Positions 1 through 15,370 of a stretch of 64,000 nucleotides of DNA are shown piece by piece. Where the stretch lies: the NCBI GenBank assembly GCA_016125275.1, contig WGMB01000002.1:62001-126000 (forward strand), written 5' to 3'. Made by a program: the position numbers and the translations under genes. Under the pieces are notes generated by a model. That model did no database searches, had not been told where the DNA came from, and worked only from the letters and a program-made list of their open reading frames with translations. Position 1 is the first letter of the stretch. Every line of letters begins with the position of its first letter. The DNA comes from Acidobacteriota bacterium (lineage in GTDB: Bacteria > Acidobacteriota > Terriglobia > Bryobacterales > UBA6623).

Positions 1-1856
1 ACTGGGGCATCAGGGAATCTATTAGGACGAATCTGTGGATCTAACTTTCTTCTGCTTCGGCTAGGCACGATGTCGCGATGCAGTTGAGCCGAAACCGACT
101 CGGAGTAAAGAAAAGTCTTCACAATTTGAATCAGAGGCAGTCGGTGCCCAACGCGCTCTTCTATTAAAGCCCAGTCGTTGTCAATCAAACTAACCGCCTT
201 CGCCACATGGGCCAAGCCTGGATTGGCATCCCTGATCGCCACAAGATGCGCTCGAACGATGTCGCGAGCCCTATATATGGAATTCCCGGGGTCTGAAATG
301 TGGAGCGCGACAACGGCGGCGATCGTGCGAATAAGATAGAAAGATACTCGATTACCCACATCTGGTATAACCCCCCACGAATGCCATATGCTCGAAATAT
401 ATTTTTGAGGTTGACCGCGATAAAAATACAGGAAGTCAAACACGTGCACCATAATCTCCGTGACCTCTTCGTAATGACGGGTAATAATGTTAGCAAGTTT
501 ATCACTGTCGAGATTCTTTACGATTAGCCTACTTGGATTGCCAGCGTCAGATTTGCCGGCGAGCGTAAGAAAAGTCAAGAGGAGATATTGACGAATGGAA
601 TCAAGCAAGTTGTCAGGCCGAGTAGCTCCCTCAATAAGACTCAACGCCAGGGCGGCATCACCAGAAATTATCCCATCAGTCGGAGAGAATTCTGGAAGCA
701 ACGCGTTGAAAACACCGTCAATGAAGCAATGCGAGATTTCGTGAGTCAATGTCAGAAGGGTCCACGAGAGGGAGTTGCACGAAGTCAAGATCGGACGGGG
801 CGCACTCAACGTCAAGCCGGTCGTACGGAAGTGGTCGATGTCGCTGAGATACGTCAAGAGGGGATAAATAGGCTCGGACCCCAGGTCCGCGGCGGCGGTT
901 GCTGACGCGAGGCTCGATCTGTCGATGATATAGGTCTCTGTCCATATCGGATCGTCAGTGGGAAGTCTCGCCAAGGAGCCGATGACCGGTCGTGACGCAA
1001 AACCCTTGAGTTGGCTCGGGATGCGCGCCTCTCCTACGATCTCCTGGACAAAGGCACGAAGGCGGGCCAGAGCCATCTCCGCAATGCCCGTGCCGAGGAG
1101 GGAGTAGAAGCGAGGATGGCCAGAGGACTGGTGTATCGGCGAAGCTCCAGCCAATGCATGGCAGCAGAGGCTTTCCAGAGCGGCGGTGGAATTTGTAACG
1201 ATGGTGAACTGTGTATGTGGATCCTTCTCGCTAGTCAGGTGATGTGACAATTGGATACATGAGTGCGAGACATCGCTAGCAAACCAGGTCGGAGCTATTG
1301 CTCTGGATAGCTCACTAGCAGTAAGAGAAATAGCGGCGAAATCAGAAAGGAGACCGTTCAAGGGTTCGTCGTCCGTGATTGTCGTTAAGGTGACGAGGGT
1401 GTCGCGAATCGCACGGTCACGAGCTATTCGATCTGAGGTATTGGGGGGAGATATAACCTTGCCGTCGAGGATTTCCCATTGCTCGAATTGCAGGGTGTGA
1501 TCGCGACAATAGCGGAGTACGGCATCTGCCGATGCTGGGTCCTTCGAGTGGATGACGATATTGAGGAAACCGAGGGCTAGCCAAGCTTGAGAATCGGGCG
1601 GCAGTAGAAGAGCACGAACGCGAGAAGGAGGTATCGGTCCGAGCATCGTGAGCCAATGCCTACCCGGAAAGTTATTCGCGACCGAATGGCTCAGGCGTTC
1701 TTTTGTGAGCGCGAGCGGAAAAATGGCCGATGACCGACTTGCTGGGCCCCAGTCGGCTAGGACCGAACTCGAATGCGGCTCAAGCCGAACGCTACCGGGG
1801 GCTCCCGAGGGACCGAGGGTGATCAGAAGATGAGTTGAATTGTCACTTATGATCAT
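1..1856 (-). CDS. Large unknown protein with HEISH zincin-like motif (C-terminus beyond left edge)
   Basis: Reading the minus strand by hand from the ATG at 1856, I find no stop in 618 codons down to position 3, so this is one long gene cut by the window edge. I do not recognise the family. Residues 372-376 read HEISH, preceded by a hydrophobic LLTLT stretch, which is the zinc-binding and catalytic helix pattern of zincin metallopeptidases. Glutamates at about 463, 464 and 467, in a predicted helix with the sequence RHYEEVTE, could supply the third metal ligand. There is no signal peptide or clear membrane helix, so a cytoplasmic location is likely. The start overlaps the stop of the small upstream gene by 14 bases, which implies translational coupling. 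Codon use (ATA, AGA, TTG) and base composition differ from the genes to the right, a sign of horizontal transfer. A peptidase, or a metal-dependent peptide-modifying enzyme, is inference only. Confidence 0.8.
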   Translation of the reverse strand, partial: MIISDNSTHLLITLGPSGAPGSVRLEPHSSSVLADWGPASRSSAIFPLALTKERLSHSVANNFPGRHWLTMLGPIPPSRVRALLLPPDSQAWLALGFLNIVIHSKDPASADAVLRYCRDHTLQFEQWEILDGKVISPPNTSDRIARDRAIRDTLVTLTTITDDEPLNGLLSDFAAISLTASELSRAIAPTWFASDVSHSCIQLSHHLTSEKDPHTQFTIVTNSTAALESLCCHALAGASPIHQSSGHPRFYSLLGTGIAEMALARLRAFVQEIVGEARIPSQLKGFASRPVIGSLARLPTDDPIWTETYIIDRSSLASATAAADLGSEPIYPLLTYLSDIDHFRTTGLTLSAPRPILTSCNSLSWTLLTLTHEISHCFIDGVFNALLPEFSPTDGIISGDAALALSLIEGATRPDNLLDSIRQYLLLTFLTLAGKSDAGNPSRLIVKNLDSDKLANIITRHYEEVTEIMVHVFDFLYFYRGQPQKYISSIWHSWGVIPDVGNRVSFYLIRTIAAVVALHISDPGNSIYRARDIVRAHLVAIRDANPGLAHVAKAVSLIDNDWALIEERVGHRLPLIQIVKTFLYSESVSAQLHRDIVPSRSRRKLDPQIRPNRFPDAP

Positions 1857-2082
1857 CTTCGGGCGGTATAACTTGAACGGGTCGTAAGGTACCAGACGAA
1901 TCCCGTACGATCTCGATGATAACGTCGCGCCCGCCCGGGTTGGGGGATGCATCTCCCGAAGAATAAGAGACCTTGTCCCTTGGGCCAACGAACTTGGCTC
2001 CGCCGAGGTTTAGGCCCAGACCAGTATCTCCAACGATTCGCTCACGACGGATTGCGGAGACGATATCTCTCAGTGGTAACAT
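1843..2082 (-). CDS. Small protein (79 aa) coupled to the HEISH gene
   Basis: A 79-codon gene of unknown function. I chose the ATG at 2082 because an AAGGAG ribosome binding site lies eight bases upstream; the open frame continues upstream to 2166, but that part looks non-coding. The protein begins MLPLRDIVSAIRRERIVGD, then has a Gly/Asn-rich stretch (GLGLNLGGAK), a Ser/Pro/Gly-rich middle, a beta-like strand DVIIEIV, and ends PPEDDHK. The stop overlaps the start of the large HEISH protein, so the two are probably made together. The Gly-Gly after a short basic/hydrophobic N-terminus faintly recalls a RiPP leader, but the residue at position -4 (Asn) does not fit the usual double-glycine rule. 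A small partner, inhibitor or substrate of the HEISH protein is equally possible. Confidence 0.7.
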   Translation of the reverse strand: MLPLRDIVSAIRRERIVGDTGLGLNLGGAKFVGPRDKVSYSSGDASPNPGGRDVIIEIVRDSSGTLRPVQVIPPEDDHK

Positions 2083-2221
2083 TGGCGAACTCCTTGTTCC
2101 TGTGTCGCTTTTCGCAAAGGATCGGCCGGCGTCGCCGTGGCGCGGCGCGATACCCGTTGGGCCCAATGATCGTTGGGAAGTACTGAGCCCTCAGATCGCG
2201 ACTATCGTGAAGGTAATCCTC

Positions 2222-2263
2222 AAAAAAAGACGGACTACGTACGCGCGGCGGCCAGTAGCCGCC
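2222..2263 (-). terminator. Possible terminator downstream of the PIG-L gene
   Basis: On the minus strand a perfect 6-bp stem with a 5-base loop (GGCGGC-TACTG-GCCGCC, plus-strand 2247-2263) is followed 18 bases later by a run of seven T (plus-strand A-run at 2222-2228). The gap between stem and T-run is longer than in a classical terminator, so this is tentative. Confidence 0.3.
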
Positions 2264-2326
2264 ACGAGCTGAGCATATCGTACTTCGGGAATTTTGGCAA
2301 GAGCGGAGCTAGGCGGTGGGACGGGA

Positions 2327-2345
2327 AACCGGGGGAAACCCGGTT
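2327..2345. other. Perfect 7-bp hairpin
   Basis: AACCGGG, loop GGAAA, CCCGGTT. It lies 133 bases downstream of the PIG-L gene stop. No T-run follows on either strand, so a role as an RNA end or processing site is uncertain. Confidence 0.35.
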
Positions 2346-2477
2346 CCGCCCTCCCCGACCACACGCGCTTGGCGCGACATGGTGACTGCCGGCAGGCTAC
2401 GGACGACCTTTCGGAACGTAGGCCGGGACGGCCCACGCGGCTCGCCTGGAGGCGCGCGCCACGGGGCCGCCCAGCCA

Positions 2478-3518
2478 TCAGAGCCGAACGGCGTTCTTGC
2501 TGACGTAGTCGTCGATCGTCGACGGAATCGGGCCCCTGTAGTAGTAGCGCTCGGCCCACTCGAGGCCGAACGGACGGCCTACTTCCCGGTCCGAAGGAGT
2601 CAGGCGCTGCGCTTCCGAGTCGGTATCCAGCACAAAGTGCTTGATGTAGTTGAAATCCGCCGTCTCATCGTCGTCGCCCAGGATCGGCAGCTTCATTCCT
2701 TTTTCAGCCAATTGCTGCTTCAGACGCCGTCCGTGCTGCCCCGCCGGCCCCTGCGTCACGTTGCACATGTTGGCGCGCACCTTGGTGTCGATATGGCTTG
2801 TAATCTCGACGATCCGGTTGATGAATTGCGGTCCGCGGCGGGTGAAGTAGTACCGCTCGCGGATGGAGTGCGGCTCGACCACGTCCAACTGCTCCGGATA
2901 GTCGAGCCTCCCGGTGTAGGCCGCTTCCACCGCCCGGGCGGTGATGTAGTGGTCCGGATTGTTGTCGTACGGAGCCCAGGGATCGTAGCTGATGATCGTA
3001 TCGATCTTCAGGCTCCGGATCAGAAACACGAACCGCGCCGTGAGCTCCTTGATGTTGATCTCGTCGAGGTTGTGGTTGCGGTAGGAGAGGTCGTAAACCC
3101 TCTCGAGCCCCAGCGCCTCGGCGACGGCCGCAGTGTCCCGCTCATCGTTCAACATGGACTCGGCGCGAGTGCGGCCGGCTCCGGCGGAATCGTCATTGGT
3201 GGTGCGGATCAGGTAGCCCTTGTACCCTTCGTGGATCAGCTTGGCGACCAGACCGCCGGCAAAGATCGGGATGTCGTCGCAATGCGGCTGGATGGCGGCC
3301 AGGACTTTTCCCGCATGCGGCTTGCCCTGCTGTTCCCGCTCAATGACCAGCTCGTCGTTCGAGAACCGGTGATGCGGGTGAAACCGGTATTTTTCCAGGT
3401 CCGCTGTCTGGCCGCTTGCCTGGGCCGGCGCGGCGGAGGCTGCCGAGGAGGCGGCCGGGGCTGCCGCCAGCGCTCCTGCGGCTAACCCTGTTTTCAGGAA
3501 GTCCTTGCGATTCATCAT
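2478..3518 (-). CDS. PIG-L (LmbE-like) family deacetylase, secreted
   Basis: A zinc-dependent N-acetylglucosaminyl-type deacetylase of the PIG-L/LmbE family, 346 residues. The N-terminus MMNRKDFLKTGLAAGALAAA is a signal with a hydrophobic Ala-rich core, so the enzyme probably acts outside the cytoplasm. The family zinc/catalytic motif appears as PHCDD at residues 78-82 (usually PHPDD, so the middle Pro is Cys here), followed by the typical FAGGLVAKL stretch. The second family signature, DPWAPYDNNPDHYITARAV, resembles the usual HPDH metal-ligand segment. The substrate cannot be read from the sequence; secreted members often act on sugar amides. A second Met follows the first directly and may be the true start. 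It is the first gene of normal composition to the right of the A/T-rich segment. Confidence 0.85.
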   Translation of the reverse strand: MMNRKDFLKTGLAAGALAAAPAASSAASAAPAQASGQTADLEKYRFHPHHRFSNDELVIEREQQGKPHAGKVLAAIQPHCDDIPIFAGGLVAKLIHEGYKGYLIRTTNDDSAGAGRTRAESMLNDERDTAAVAEALGLERVYDLSYRNHNLDEINIKELTARFVFLIRSLKIDTIISYDPWAPYDNNPDHYITARAVEAAYTGRLDYPEQLDVVEPHSIRERYYFTRRGPQFINRIVEITSHIDTKVRANMCNVTQGPAGQHGRRLKQQLAEKGMKLPILGDDDETADFNYIKHFVLDTDSEAQRLTPSDREVGRPFGLEWAERYYYRGPIPSTIDDYVSKNAVRL

Positions 3519-10547: not shown

Positions 10548-11687
10548 CTACTTCCAGGCCCGCCGGCCGGTCAGCAGGCGAAGCAGCCCGACCAGCGCGG
10601 CCAGGTTGATCATGGTGAAGTAGTACGGCAGCCGCAGGGCCTTGATCGGCAGCAGCCCCAGCCCGCCGGCGGCCGCCAGCGCGTAGAAGCCCAGTTGTCC
10701 GGCCATCGTGAGCTGGTAGAGCGGCTGGTCGAGCAGAAAGGAGTTGGCGACCAGGGCCGCGATCATCGCCGGCGGCGCAAACATCCGGCCCGCCTTGTGC
10801 GACAGCAGAAAGAACAGCGTGAGCCACTGCTTGGGCGGCCACAAGAAGCCGAACACCTCGGTGAGCTGCTCGATGTTGCCCGTCATGATGCGGATGCGCC
10901 TGCCGAAGCCGCCCATCTCGTGCGCTTCTTCCACAGCCACCGCGGCGGGCTCATAGGCCACCCGCCAGCCGGCGCGGGCGATGCGCAGCGGGATGACGAA
11001 GTCGTCGTTGATCACGCCGGGGTCGAGCTGGGGATACAGCTCGCGACGAATGGCGTACAGGGCGCCGTGCGCGCCCAGGATCGAGCCGATCTCCGCCTCC
11101 TTCTGCTTGATCCAGGTTTCGTAGCGCCAGTAGAACCCGGCCTGCTGGCCGAGCTGGTGGCTGTCACGGTTCTCGATGCGGTAGACGCCGCTGACGGCGC
11201 CGACGGCGGGGTCCGCGAAATTGCTCGCCAGGTCGCGAACGGCGTTCGGCGAGGGCATGCTGGCGGCGTCGGAGAAGACCACGATCTCCCCGTGCAGCTC
11301 CGGCACGACGGCGTTGAGCATCGCCAGCTTGCCGCGGTTCTGCTGGAAGTCGAGCAGCCGCACGCGCGCGCCGTCGGCGTGCGGACGCACCAGCTCGCAG
11401 GTGGCGTCAGTGGAGCCGTCGGAGGCGACCACCACCTCGATCTTCTCTGCCGGGTAGTCCAGCCGACGGCAGGCGGCCAGTTTCTCTTCGATGACGTCGG
11501 CCTCGTTGTAGGCCGGAATCAACAGCGAGACGAAAGGCTCTACCGGCCCTTTGCGGACCGGCCGGGCGAAGAGCTTCGACAAAACCGCCAGCAGCAGCGG
11601 GAACCCGAAATAGAGGTACGCCGTCGCCAGGACCGAAAGCCAGAAGACCCACTGCATCGGCAACGTCAGGGCCGGGAGAGACATCAA
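10548..11687 (-). CDS. Membrane glycosyltransferase, family 2
   Basis: A processive-type GT2 glycosyltransferase, 379 residues. One membrane helix lies at the N-terminus (MQWVFWLSVLATAYLYFGFPLLLAVL), then the GT-A catalytic domain starting SLLIPAYNEADVIEEKL, with VVVASDGSTDAT (nucleotide-sugar binding Asp), FSDAASMPSP (metal/acceptor Asp) and a later INDDFVIPLRIARAG segment (catalytic-base Asp pair). At least three helices follow at the C-terminus. Such enzymes build polysaccharide or lipid-linked sugars at the inner membrane. The donor and acceptor cannot be deduced. The neighbouring MATE exporter lies 45 bases upstream on the same strand. Confidence 0.9.
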   Translation of the reverse strand: MMSLPALTLPMQWVFWLSVLATAYLYFGFPLLLAVLSKLFARPVRKGPVEPFVSLLIPAYNEADVIEEKLAACRRLDYPAEKIEVVVASDGSTDATCELVRPHADGARVRLLDFQQNRGKLAMLNAVVPELHGEIVVFSDAASMPSPNAVRDLASNFADPAVGAVSGVYRIENRDSHQLGQQAGFYWRYETWIKQKEAEIGSILGAHGALYAIRRELYPQLDPGVINDDFVIPLRIARAGWRVAYEPAAVAVEEAHEMGGFGRRIRIMTGNIEQLTEVFGFLWPPKQWLTLFFLLSHKAGRMFAPPAMIAALVANSFLLDQPLYQLTMAGQLGFYALAAAGGLGLLPIKALRLPYYFTMINLAALVGLLRLLTGRRAWK

Positions 11688-11732
11688 GAAACTCTTCGGC
11701 CGACGCCGGCCCGTCCGTCCAGTATCGCTCGC

Positions 11733-13127
11733 TCAGGCCAGCGGCGAGGCCGGCTGCGGCAAGCGGCTGACGTGGCTGCGGAACTTCTCCAGCCTGGTGG
11801 ACCAGAAATAGGCCAACACCGCGCCCACCGAGATCAGTCCGAGCGACAAGCCGACCCAGACGCCGGCCACGCCCCAACCCATCCGAAAACAAAGCCACCA
11901 GCCGACGGGCAGACCCAGGAACCAGTGGCCGACCAGATTGGTGACCAGCGGCGTGCGGGTGTCTCCCGCGCCGCGCAGGGCGCCGGTCGCCACCACCTGA
12001 AAGCCGTCAAAGAGCTGGAAGGCGGCCGCGATGTACAGCAGCGTCGAGCCGATGGCGATCACGTGGACCTCGTTGGTGAAGATCCGCAGAATGGTCTCGT
12101 CGAAAAGCACGAACGCCAGCCCGGCCACGAGCATGAAGGCCGCGCCCAGCCCCAGCGCCGTCCAGCCGGCGCGGTGCGCGCCCTCGGGATCGCGGCGCCC
12201 CAGCGCCTGTCCCACCCGCACGGCCGCCGCCGAGGAGATTCCCAGCGGCGCCATGAAGCTCACGCTGGCCGCCTGCAGGGCGATCTGGTGAGCCGCCAGC
12301 GAGACCGCGTCCAGCGTGCCGACCATCGCCGTCGCCAGCGCGAACACGCCGATCTCCAGCGCCCTCTGCATGGCCGCCGGAAAGCCCAGCCCGGCCAACT
12401 GCCGCAGCCGAGGGAAATCCAGCCCAAGTTTGGCCTCCCATAGCCCCGTATTCCGCTTGCGGGCGTCGTAGAGCATATAGACGAACAGCGCCACGCACAT
12501 ATAGATGCGCGAGGCGCAACTGGCCCAGCCCGCGCCGGCCACGCCGAAGGCCGGCATGCCCCACTCGCCGTAGATGAACAGCCAGTTGGCGAAAGCGTTC
12601 ACCAGATTCGCCGAGATCAACGTGAACATTACGGCCTTGACCCGGTCGATCGCCTGCAAATACTGCCGGAAGGCCATGTAGAGCAGCAGCGGCGGAGCGC
12701 TCCACAACAGGGCCTCGGTGTAGGGCTTGGCCAGCCGCGCCACCTCCGGGTCGAGGCCGAAACGGTCCAACCAGGGCAGCAGCACGAACATCGGAACCAT
12801 CAGCAGAGGCCCCATCACGAGCGAGCCGTAGGCCGCCTGGATGAGCGAATGGTTGCAGTCCTCCAGGTCTCCCGCGCCGTAGGCTTGGGGCGCCAAAGTG
12901 TCCAGTCCCAGTAGCATCCCGGCTCCGAACACGCCCACGGTATAGAACAGCACCGCGCCGATGGAGACCGCCCCGATGGCCTCGGCGCTCAGCCGCCCGA
13001 CCATGATCGTGTCGACGACGCTCATGGACATCCAGCCCAGCTCCGCAATCACCACCGGGACGGCGACAGAGAGCATCGGCCGGAGCTCCTTGCGAAGCGC
13101 CGCGCGTATGCGCTGGACGAGAAGCAT
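11733..13127 (-). CDS. MATE-family multidrug/cation antiporter
   Basis: A 464-residue transporter of the multidrug and toxic compound extrusion family, which exports drugs or metabolites in exchange for H+ or Na+. Family features include the N-terminal PVVIAELGWMSMSVVDTIMVGRLSAEAIGAV segment, the matching second-half start FPAAMQRALEIGVFALATAMVGTLDAVSLAAHQIAL, and about twelve hydrophobic helices. The second-half segment GALRGAGDTRTPLVTNLVGHW is also typical. It is divergent from the plus-strand DUF1501 gene, with 114 bases between them. Confidence 0.95.
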   Translation of the reverse strand: MLLVQRIRAALRKELRPMLSVAVPVVIAELGWMSMSVVDTIMVGRLSAEAIGAVSIGAVLFYTVGVFGAGMLLGLDTLAPQAYGAGDLEDCNHSLIQAAYGSLVMGPLLMVPMFVLLPWLDRFGLDPEVARLAKPYTEALLWSAPPLLLYMAFRQYLQAIDRVKAVMFTLISANLVNAFANWLFIYGEWGMPAFGVAGAGWASCASRIYMCVALFVYMLYDARKRNTGLWEAKLGLDFPRLRQLAGLGFPAAMQRALEIGVFALATAMVGTLDAVSLAAHQIALQAASVSFMAPLGISSAAAVRVGQALGRRDPEGAHRAGWTALGLGAAFMLVAGLAFVLFDETILRIFTNEVHVIAIGSTLLYIAAAFQLFDGFQVVATGALRGAGDTRTPLVTNLVGHWFLGLPVGWWLCFRMGWGVAGVWVGLSLGLISVGAVLAYFWSTRLEKFRSHVSRLPQPASPLA

Positions 13128-13220
13128 CGGGAAAGGCTGCGAGCCCAGCTTCGATGATCCGCGCTAGCCCCCCGCCATTGCAACCCGCGCCGAGCCGAAC
13201 CCCAAACTGCTGTAGAATGG

Positions 13221-13235
13221 CCCCCAAGCAGGGGG
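13221..13235 (+). promoter_or_regulatory. Hairpin overlapping the ribosome binding site of the DUF1501 gene
   Basis: CCCCC, loop AAGCA, GGGGG. The 3' arm is the G-rich Shine-Dalgarno-like sequence six bases before the ATG at 13242, so folding would mask it. A -10-like TAGAAT lies at 13213-13218. If transcription starts just after that box, only part of the hairpin is in the mRNA. Confidence 0.3.
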
Positions 13236-13241
13236 ACGCCT

Positions 13242-14534
13242 ATGTTTCGGCTCGATCATCACCGCTCGGTGGAGTTTTGCGACGGCTGGCGACGCCGGGA
13301 TTTCCTGCGCGTCGGCTCGGCGGGCCTGCTGGGCCTGAGCGAGCTTGCCGGCCTGAAGGCCCGCGGCGCCGTCGCCGACTCCGGCGTCAACGTCATCTGG
13401 ATCAACCTGGTCGGCGGCCCCAGCCAGCTCGACACTTTCGACCCCAAGCCGGACGCGCCCAGCGAGATCCGCGGGCCCTTCCGCCCGATCCGCACCAACG
13501 TCGCCGGGGTGGAGATCAGCGATATCTTCCCGCGGCTGGCTCGGCGCGCCGACCGCTACGCCATCCTGCGGACGCTGCACCACGACGGCTCGGCGGTGCA
13601 CGACGTGGGGCATCAGTTGATGCAGACCGGACGGAGCATCCGCCGTGGCGAGCAGAGTCCCAACCTGGGCTGCTCGTTGAGCCGGCTCGACGGCGCGCCG
13701 CCGCCGGTGATTTTGCCGGCGCCGATCGGCGCGACCGGCGGCAACATGTCCCACGGGCAGGACGCCGGCTGCCTGGGCGCCGCCTGCGACCCCTTCGTGC
13801 TCTCGGCCGACGGCGCCGGCTTCACGCCCTGGCGCGAACAGGCCGACCGCGCCGTCCACGACCTCGAGCAGGCCCGCGACCCGCGCCTCGACGATCCGCA
13901 CTTTCAGGCCGCCTACGCTGCGGTGAGCTCTTCGGCGGCCCGCCAAGCCCTGGATCTGCGCGCGGTCGCCGACCACGATCGCGCCCGCTACGGCCTCAAT
14001 CGCTTTGGCGAGAGCTGCTTGCTGGCCCGGCGCCTCACGGGCGCCGGCGTGCGCTTTGTGACCGTCAACATGTTCGAGACGGTCTTCGACGAGATCACCT
14101 GGGATATCCACGGCACGGCGCCGTTCAGCCCCATCGACGCCTACGCCGGCCAAGTCGGGCCGATGTTCGACCGGGCCTTCTCGGCGCTGCTCGACGACCT
14201 TTCCGCCGAGGGTCGCCTGGAGCGCACCTTGCTGGTCGCCGCCGGCGAGTTCGGCCGGACGCCGCGGATCAATCCGGCCGGCGGACGCGACCACTGGACC
14301 AACTGCTGGTCGATCCTGATGGCGGGCGGCGGAGTGCGGGGCGGCCAAGTCATCGGCGCCTCCGACGCCAAGGGCGCCGAGCCCGCCGAGCGGCCGATCG
14401 AGCCGGCGCAGATCGCCGCCAGCGTCTGCCATGCCCTGGGCGTCGCGCCGGACGCCGCAGCGCCCACCGCCGACGGAGGGAGCGTGCGGCTGGTGGAAGA
14501 AGGCGTGGAGCCGATCCACGAGCTGTTCGGCTAG
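13242..14534 (+). CDS. DUF1501 domain protein with Tat signal
   Basis: A 430-residue DUF1501 protein, a family distantly related to alkaline phosphatase/sulfatase folds and common in Planctomycetes and Acidobacteria. The N-terminus contains the twin-Arg signal RRRDFLRVGSAGLLGLSEL. Family segments include VIWINLVGGPSQLDTFDPKPDAP, the Gly/Asp strand LVAAGEFGRTPRINPAGGRDHW, and a C-terminal IDRP-like helix region. Unlike the second DUF1501 gene in this window (27797-29170), no DUF1549/1553 cytochrome partner lies beside it; it is followed instead by a 3-keto-disaccharide hydrolase. The biochemical activity of the family is not established. Confidence 0.9.
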   Translation: MFRLDHHRSVEFCDGWRRRDFLRVGSAGLLGLSELAGLKARGAVADSGVNVIWINLVGGPSQLDTFDPKPDAPSEIRGPFRPIRTNVAGVEISDIFPRLARRADRYAILRTLHHDGSAVHDVGHQLMQTGRSIRRGEQSPNLGCSLSRLDGAPPPVILPAPIGATGGNMSHGQDAGCLGAACDPFVLSADGAGFTPWREQADRAVHDLEQARDPRLDDPHFQAAYAAVSSSAARQALDLRAVADHDRARYGLNRFGESCLLARRLTGAGVRFVTVNMFETVFDEITWDIHGTAPFSPIDAYAGQVGPMFDRAFSALLDDLSAEGRLERTLLVAAGEFGRTPRINPAGGRDHWTNCWSILMAGGGVRGGQVIGASDAKGAEPAERPIEPAQIAASVCHALGVAPDAAAPTADGGSVRLVEEGVEPIHELFG

Positions 14535-14548
14535 GAGAAGACCCCGCG

Positions 14549-15370
14549 ATGCGAAGCCTCCTGTTTCTGGCCCTTCTCGGCGGCTCCCTGGCCGCCCAAG
14601 CCGCCGACTTCGAGGCTGCCAACGGCCCCACGCCGGAGTTCCTGGCGCTGCGGTCCTCGTTCGAGAACCCCGCGGAGGGCTGGACGCCGCTGTTCAACGG
14701 CAAGGATCTCTCCGGCTGGCATCCGCAGGACTACTCTCCGCGTCCGCAACGGCCTTGGGACTGGACGGTTCCGGCGCTGATCGCCCTGGACCCGTCCGAC
14801 GACCACTTTCTGCTCGCTAAGGCCTTTCCGGCCGGCTCGCCGCTGACGCCCGCCGTTGTCGCCGACCACGAAGGCAAGTCCGCCAACCTGGTCAGCGACC
14901 GCGAATTCGCCGACGCCGAGGTCTACGTGGAGTATGTGATGTCGCGCAAGACCAACGCCGGGGTCTGCCTGATGGGCAACTACGAGATCCAGCTCTATGA
15001 CAGCGTCGGCGTGGCCGACAGCGACCTGACCGTCACCGACAACGGAGCGATCTACGCCTACCGCGGCAAGAAGGGCCGCGTGGGCGGCTCGCCGCCGCGC
15101 GTGAACGCGAGCCGCGGCGCGGGCGAGTGGCAGAGCGTGCACATCTGGTTCCGCGCGCCGCGCTTCCAGGACGGCAAGAAGGTCGAGAACGCTCGCTTCC
15201 TCAAAGTCTTGCTCAACGGCGTGGAGGTCCAGCGCAACTACGAGCTGCTGTACTCCACCCGAGCGGTTCCGCCCTGGGAGGAGCGCCCGGTGGCGCCGCT
15301 GCTGCTGCAGGGCGACCACGGCCCGGTCGCCTTTCGCAACGGGTGGATTCGCGAGCTGCGGCCCCAGTGA
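14549..15370 (+). CDS. 3-keto-disaccharide hydrolase (DUF1080) family protein
   Basis: A 273-residue secreted protein. The signal peptide is MRSLLFLALLGGSLAAQA. The family signature GWTPLFNGKDLSGWH starts at about residue 43; DAEVYVEYVMSRKTNAGVCLMGNYEIQLYDS and the C-terminal PLLLQGDHGPVAFRNGWIREL are typical of the concanavalin-like fold. The family hydrolyses 3-keto-glycosides after oxidation of a sugar. The start at 14549 follows the DUF1501 stop by 14 bases, so the two are probably one operon. The Gfo/Idh/MocA oxidoreductases elsewhere in the window would be natural partners for making the 3-keto substrate, but that link is inference. Confidence 0.9.
   Translation: MRSLLFLALLGGSLAAQAADFEAANGPTPEFLALRSSFENPAEGWTPLFNGKDLSGWHPQDYSPRPQRPWDWTVPALIALDPSDDHFLLAKAFPAGSPLTPAVVADHEGKSANLVSDREFADAEVYVEYVMSRKTNAGVCLMGNYEIQLYDSVGVADSDLTVTDNGAIYAYRGKKGRVGGSPPRVNASRGAGEWQSVHIWFRAPRFQDGKKVENARFLKVLLNGVEVQRNYELLYSTRAVPPWEERPVAPLLLQGDHGPVAFRNGWIRELRPQ

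Follow-up and report, generated by a model that had tools for sequence, protein, structure and literature searches.

A rare, apparently mobile cassette joins an unrecognised HExxH protein to a SIR2 protein in three bacterial phyla

The window analysed here is a stretch of 64,000 nucleotides (C10:62001-126000) from an Acidobacteriota genome of 7.55 Mb in 20 contigs. An earlier note had described a large frame running off its left edge and encoding the motif HEISH. This frame is real and lies on the minus strand, and the sequence to the left (L002, C10:47001-66000; window position equals L002 position minus 15000) completes it to 655 codons followed by a TAA stop. The frameshift or stop just past the edge that was named as a possible refutation did not occur; the gene is free of frameshifts and internal stops and ends normally 111 bases beyond the window. 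The motif stands exactly where it had been placed, at residues 372-376, and the absence of a signal agrees by eye with the sequence. A frame of 655 codons in DNA of about 0.52 GC would far exceed chance origin, and since other phyla hold full-length relatives (blastp 3e-68 and 2e-43), the product is a conserved protein. The features of the locus are as follows.

Window 1..1856, minus strand: HEISH gene, part within the window; ATG at 1856, exits at base 1
L002:14889-16856 (C10:61889-63856), minus strand: complete HEISH gene, 655 aa
Window 729..743, minus strand: HEISH motif, residues 372-376, with H372, E373 and H376 invariant in four members
Window 435..458, minus strand: second invariant motif, E467-xxx-H471-xx-D474, on a helix (451-478) predicted with low confidence
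Window 1843..2082, minus strand: g1, 79 aa, possibly a short leader gene; overlap of 14 nt between its stop end and the HEISH start
L002:14159-14896 (C10:61159-61896), minus strand: g3, unrecognised, 245 aa; left of the window, after the HEISH gene
L002:13216-14124 (C10:60216-61124), minus strand: SIR2_2 protein, 302 aa, Pfam 5.7e-13; after g3
Window 1..2082, minus strand: low-GC cassette island, part within the window; continues about 1.8 kb to the left

The ATG of g3 overlaps the HEISH stop as ATGACTAA. The start of g1 is preceded by AAGGAG, a good ribosome-binding site, its codon-position GC (0.64/0.47/0.51) is like that of the cassette, and a weak sigma-70-like site lies about 190 nt above it; no family match was obtained for g1. 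Across the island GC is about 0.46-0.57 against 0.61-0.70 in the flanks, and GC3 is 0.51-0.54 against 0.82-0.94, and the block was therefore probably acquired from elsewhere. Neither a tRNA nor a clear flanking repeat bounding the island was found at this locus, nor any Rfam RNA. At the island edge, adjoining the SIR2 gene downstream (L002:12751-13018), stand two 27-nt copies, 85% alike and 241 nt apart, of CGCCTTCAGGATA...TGTCAAG. The possibility that g3 is a duplicate of part of the HExxH protein received no support from their comparison.

The claim that the HEISH gene fits no known family stood up throughout: Pfam, NCBIfam (2026), PADLOC, PHROGs and PDB sequences all lacked a match. Its relatives, and the profile built from them, were equally without a family match in Pfam, NCBIfam, PADLOC and PDB sequences. 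None of the Pfam peptidase families matched at E values up to 10, and no known-family profile of gluzincin-type metallopeptidases did so in Pfam, NCBIfam or PDB sequences. Since neither a profile nor a fold match was obtained, the protein is not filed here in any peptidase family. A system combining SIR2 with HEXXH was not found in the open-access literature.

Searches with the single protein recovered no relative in 99 near relatives of the source genome, 395 other genomes of the phylum, plasmids or phages, and exact 8-mer peptide scans of viral and genome contigs were likewise without relatives. Degenerate patterns were then derived from artificial alignments with variable motif positions. 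They were centred on HExxH and on a Trp-rich stretch (YISSIWHSW) because these seemed the likeliest conserved places; the artificial rows served to make patterns only, and matches were confirmed by tblastn with the true HEISH protein. On viral contigs these patterns matched nothing, and on genome contigs two of 43 matches encode real full-length relatives: L017, from a PVC-group metagenome-assembled genome (MAG; 28% identity, tblastn 2e-64), and L018, from a Gemmatimonadetes MAG (25%, 1e-41). The three full-length proteins match each other pairwise at blastp 3e-68, 2e-43 and 9e-52. From their real alignment a fourth member, L019, was found on a contig of the IMG/VR viral collection (22% identity over residues 220-625, blastp 1e-21).

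Although these three relatives span only 19-29% identity to the HEISH protein, 52 of the 655 columns are invariant in the four members. Invariant residues include W365, T369-L370-T371-H372-E373, H376, E467, H471 and D474, and further on F478-Y479, Y486, W491 and S493-W494. The motif itself reads HEISH, HELAH, HELSH or HEFMH, always with H372, E373 and H376. The earlier proposal of possible third ligands at 463-467 survives in part: E467, which stands 91 residues downstream of HExxH, is invariant in all four members, whereas the neighbouring Glu residues are not conserved. E467 is the best candidate for a third metal ligand, and HExxH followed about 90 residues on by ExxxHxxD could have the look of a gluzincin-type site. 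If invariant columns fell at random, all three named positions would be invariant with a probability of about 5e-4.

Structure prediction adds little. The AlphaFold model of the HEISH protein from four sequences has a mean pLDDT of 51, and that of g3 a pLDDT of 45; both are too poor for fold assignment. In the former, N-terminal residues 1-140 take an alpha/beta form, residues from about 370 to 590 make up a helical C-terminal region with pLDDT blocks up to 91, and the middle lacks resolved structure; a fold search of the PDB with this model gave no significant match. The same model puts HEISH in helix 363-386 and E467/H471 in helix 451-478. Zincins likewise carry such motifs on two separate long helices, though at this model confidence the arrangement is weak evidence.

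The gene gains its meaning from its neighbours, which were invisible to the earlier note. The order HExxH, g3, SIR2 in the same orientation is found in the source genome, L017 and L018, that is in three phyla, with g3 of about 245 aa and a SIR2_2 protein of about 300 aa. Since neither g3 nor SIR2 had been used in finding L017 and L018, the operon order is independent evidence. Across the cassettes the g3 proteins show a weak but genuine similarity (blastp 7e-7, 6e-6 and 6e-14; shuffle z 9-23). In L017 the HExxH gene and g3 overlap by 14 nt and g3 and SIR2 by ATGA, and in L018 the genes nearly abut. No complete cassette is known beyond these three, and two of them come from MAGs; beside L019 g3 and SIR2 cannot be seen because its contig stops where the HExxH gene does. 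Small ORFs upstream of the HExxH gene also occur in L017, L018 and L019. Homology of these g1-like leader genes received no support, as they show no sequence similarity. In L018 a strong hairpin with a T run at about 2110-2160, terminator-like by eye, separates the HExxH gene from a 76-aa ORF upstream, and this small ORF is therefore probably transcribed on its own.

Upstream of the L017 cassette are a tyrosine integrase, an HTH_17 ORF and a tRNA-Arg; the 5′ edge of L018 holds, by reading, the end of a transposase-like ORF; and in L019 the stretch 1424-3435, just upstream of the HExxH gene, encodes a large serine recombinase together with a DUF2924 protein, a setting like that where a prophage or other integrated element ends. 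With a low-GC island in one case and an integrase, a transposase or a recombinase beside the others, the cassette loci look mobile. The HExxH family is very rare and patchily distributed. It was absent from all 99 near relatives of the source genome, had no carrier besides the source genome in a 396-genome sample of the phylum, and was found only in their own genomes among 241 genomes of the phylum of L017 and 249 of that of L018. Closer relatives of L017 (126) and L018 (128) yielded no further carrier, and none was found in 72,556 plasmids and 50,697 phages. Similarly, g3 was absent from 198 other genomes of the phylum.

The SIR2 protein is the one recognisable member of the cassette. SIR2_2 (PF13289) scores 49.6, 44.3 and 31.8 bits in the three cassettes against a cut-off of 24.5, and all three proteins keep the Rossmann GxG (GAG/GSG), N133 and H170, the catalytic Asn and His aligning with those of ThsA. 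They share 33-36% identity with each other (blastp, 164 and 147 bits); other SIR2 proteins of the phylum reach at best about 32%, along part of their length, and about 63 bits against the cassette SIR2, and their flanks (about 1.5 kb) hold nothing like the HEISH protein or g3. The solved proteins closest to the cassette SIR2s include ThsA, KomC, FAM118B and DSR2. In Thoeris, DSR2, SPARSA and other systems such SIR2 proteins deplete NAD+, and the cassette SIR2 is likely an NAD-destroying enzyme.

Known systems resemble the cassette in parts. Like Thoeris, it has an NADase-type SIR2 effector in a compact operon. However, the cassette SIR2 lacks a SLOG domain, and its partners, one of which carries HExxH, are unrelated proteins; profile searches gave no match to the TIR domain of a ThsB in the partner genes, SIR2_2 being the only domain found. 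The SIR2 domain is homologous to that of DSR1 and DSR2 (NCBIfam Dsr1, E 1.5e-6), but the 302-aa protein scores 26 bits against the NCBIfam cut-off of 1400 and falls outside DSR1, and DSRs are single proteins of about 1000-1275 aa with a built-in sensor, whereas the cassette SIR2 of about 300 aa has two separate partners. In Kongming, KomC is also a short stand-alone SIR2 NADase (264 aa) and works with separate partners, but similarity to KomC is confined to the SIR2 core, and we know of no HExxH protein or g3 relative in that system. The nearest plasmid SIR2 proteins (26-28% identity) lie in small operons as well, with nucleoside 2-deoxyribosyltransferase instead, and no HExxH protein or g3 is annotated there; the different partners of these plasmid proteins show that SIR2 is a swappable effector.

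Taken together, the cassette is proposed to be a horizontally moved operon, (g1?)-HExxH-g3-SIR2, serving most likely in abortive-infection defence with a SIR2 NADase gated by its partners, a reading to which we give an even chance. The SIR2 protein would be the killing part and degrade NAD+. Being only about 300 aa and without a sensor domain such as ThsA or DSR2 has, it needs partners for restraint and switching. The HExxH protein, predicted to be a gluzincin-like metal enzyme with H372, H376 and E467 as ligands and E373 as catalytic residue, would sense infection, presumably by phage, together with g3, its putative adaptor or substrate, and the two would then release or activate the NADase. 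As the target of cleavage, g3, SIR2, a phage protein or a host protein would all be compatible. One may further speculate that a new metallopeptidase family senses infection, cleaves g3 or a bound inhibitor and so unleashes SIR2, a tentative and rather doubtful extension that would provide a bacterial counterpart of protease-triggered cell-death pathways. The cassette, if confirmed, would connect NAD+ depletion with metalloproteolysis in the immunity of bacteria. Against partner-gated defence count the small number of complete cassettes, the poor structure model, the fact that HExxH motifs can be non-catalytic or part of other metal enzymes, and the result that no known defence system was seen neighbouring the cassette in the source genome. 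SIR2 NADases are established anti-phage effectors whose sensing differs in each known system, and new here are two unrecognised protein families as candidate sensor or activator, one with a conserved metal-enzyme motif. With the HEISH gene at the head of a conserved cassette with a SIR2 effector, the earlier suggestion of an undescribed system is plausible, and the cassette is small enough for direct cloning and testing.

Other explanations must be weighed against partner-gated defence. The HExxH protein could itself be a toxin, a protease attacking an essential host protein, and SIR2 would then be another effector acting on its own. A precedent is Lit, the zincin-like metallopeptidase of a defective prophage that acts in phage exclusion by cleaving EF-Tu and aborting T4 infection (PMC3506569), and the L019 copy adjoins a phage-type serine recombinase. 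Still, the lack of any Pfam peptidase match, and of detectable Pfam similarity to Lit, speaks against such a toxin, and the repeated pairing with SIR2 across three phyla points to a single pathway more than to a pair of toxins. Lit moreover acts without a SIR2 partner and is much smaller than the 655-aa HExxH protein, and we consider this explanation unlikely. It is similarly improbable that the protein is a non-protease metal enzyme, a hydrolase or nucleotide-modifying enzyme, making or removing a signal read by SIR2. Thoeris does pair its SIR2 effector with a protein that makes a signal (PMC11204291), and, the fold evidence being weak, the HExxH protein is only a putative protease, but the SIR2 protein of about 300 aa has no SLOG/STALD sensor like that of ThsA, Pfam showing SIR2_2 only.

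The genes for integrase, transposase or recombinase that adjoin three of the four members, together with the low GC at the source locus and the patchy distribution, would also suit a toxin-antitoxin or other element-stabilising module of mobile elements rather than an anti-phage system. At 245-655 aa, however, the three proteins are big for a module of this kind, and roles in defence and stabilisation overlap, so that we assign it a low probability. As HExxH is a short motif and the structure model is poor, HEISH might have arisen by chance or be a remnant within a sensor protein of purely structural role, leaving SIR2 as the sole enzyme. The invariance of the HExxH residues and of E467, H471 and D474 at 19-29% identity, with a random probability of about 5e-4 for the three HExxH positions, makes this highly improbable.

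Two observations concern neighbouring genes elsewhere. The two plasmid SIR2 relatives (L026:4824-6982 and L027:4920-7033) are each followed, with a 4-nt overlap, by a gene annotated as nucleoside 2-deoxyribosyltransferase, a further pairing in which SIR2 recurs, and one of these loci has a large P-loop NTPase upstream. Of the cassette loci, only L017 has a neighbour with best matches to defence models: on the strand opposite to the PVC cassette (11499-15286, minus strand) lie a UvrD-like helicase, whose best PADLOC match is the NERD+UvrD candidate model C3a187 (3.6e-22), and, by reading, an Hsp70-like protein, possibly a second defence unit or an accessory unit of the same element.
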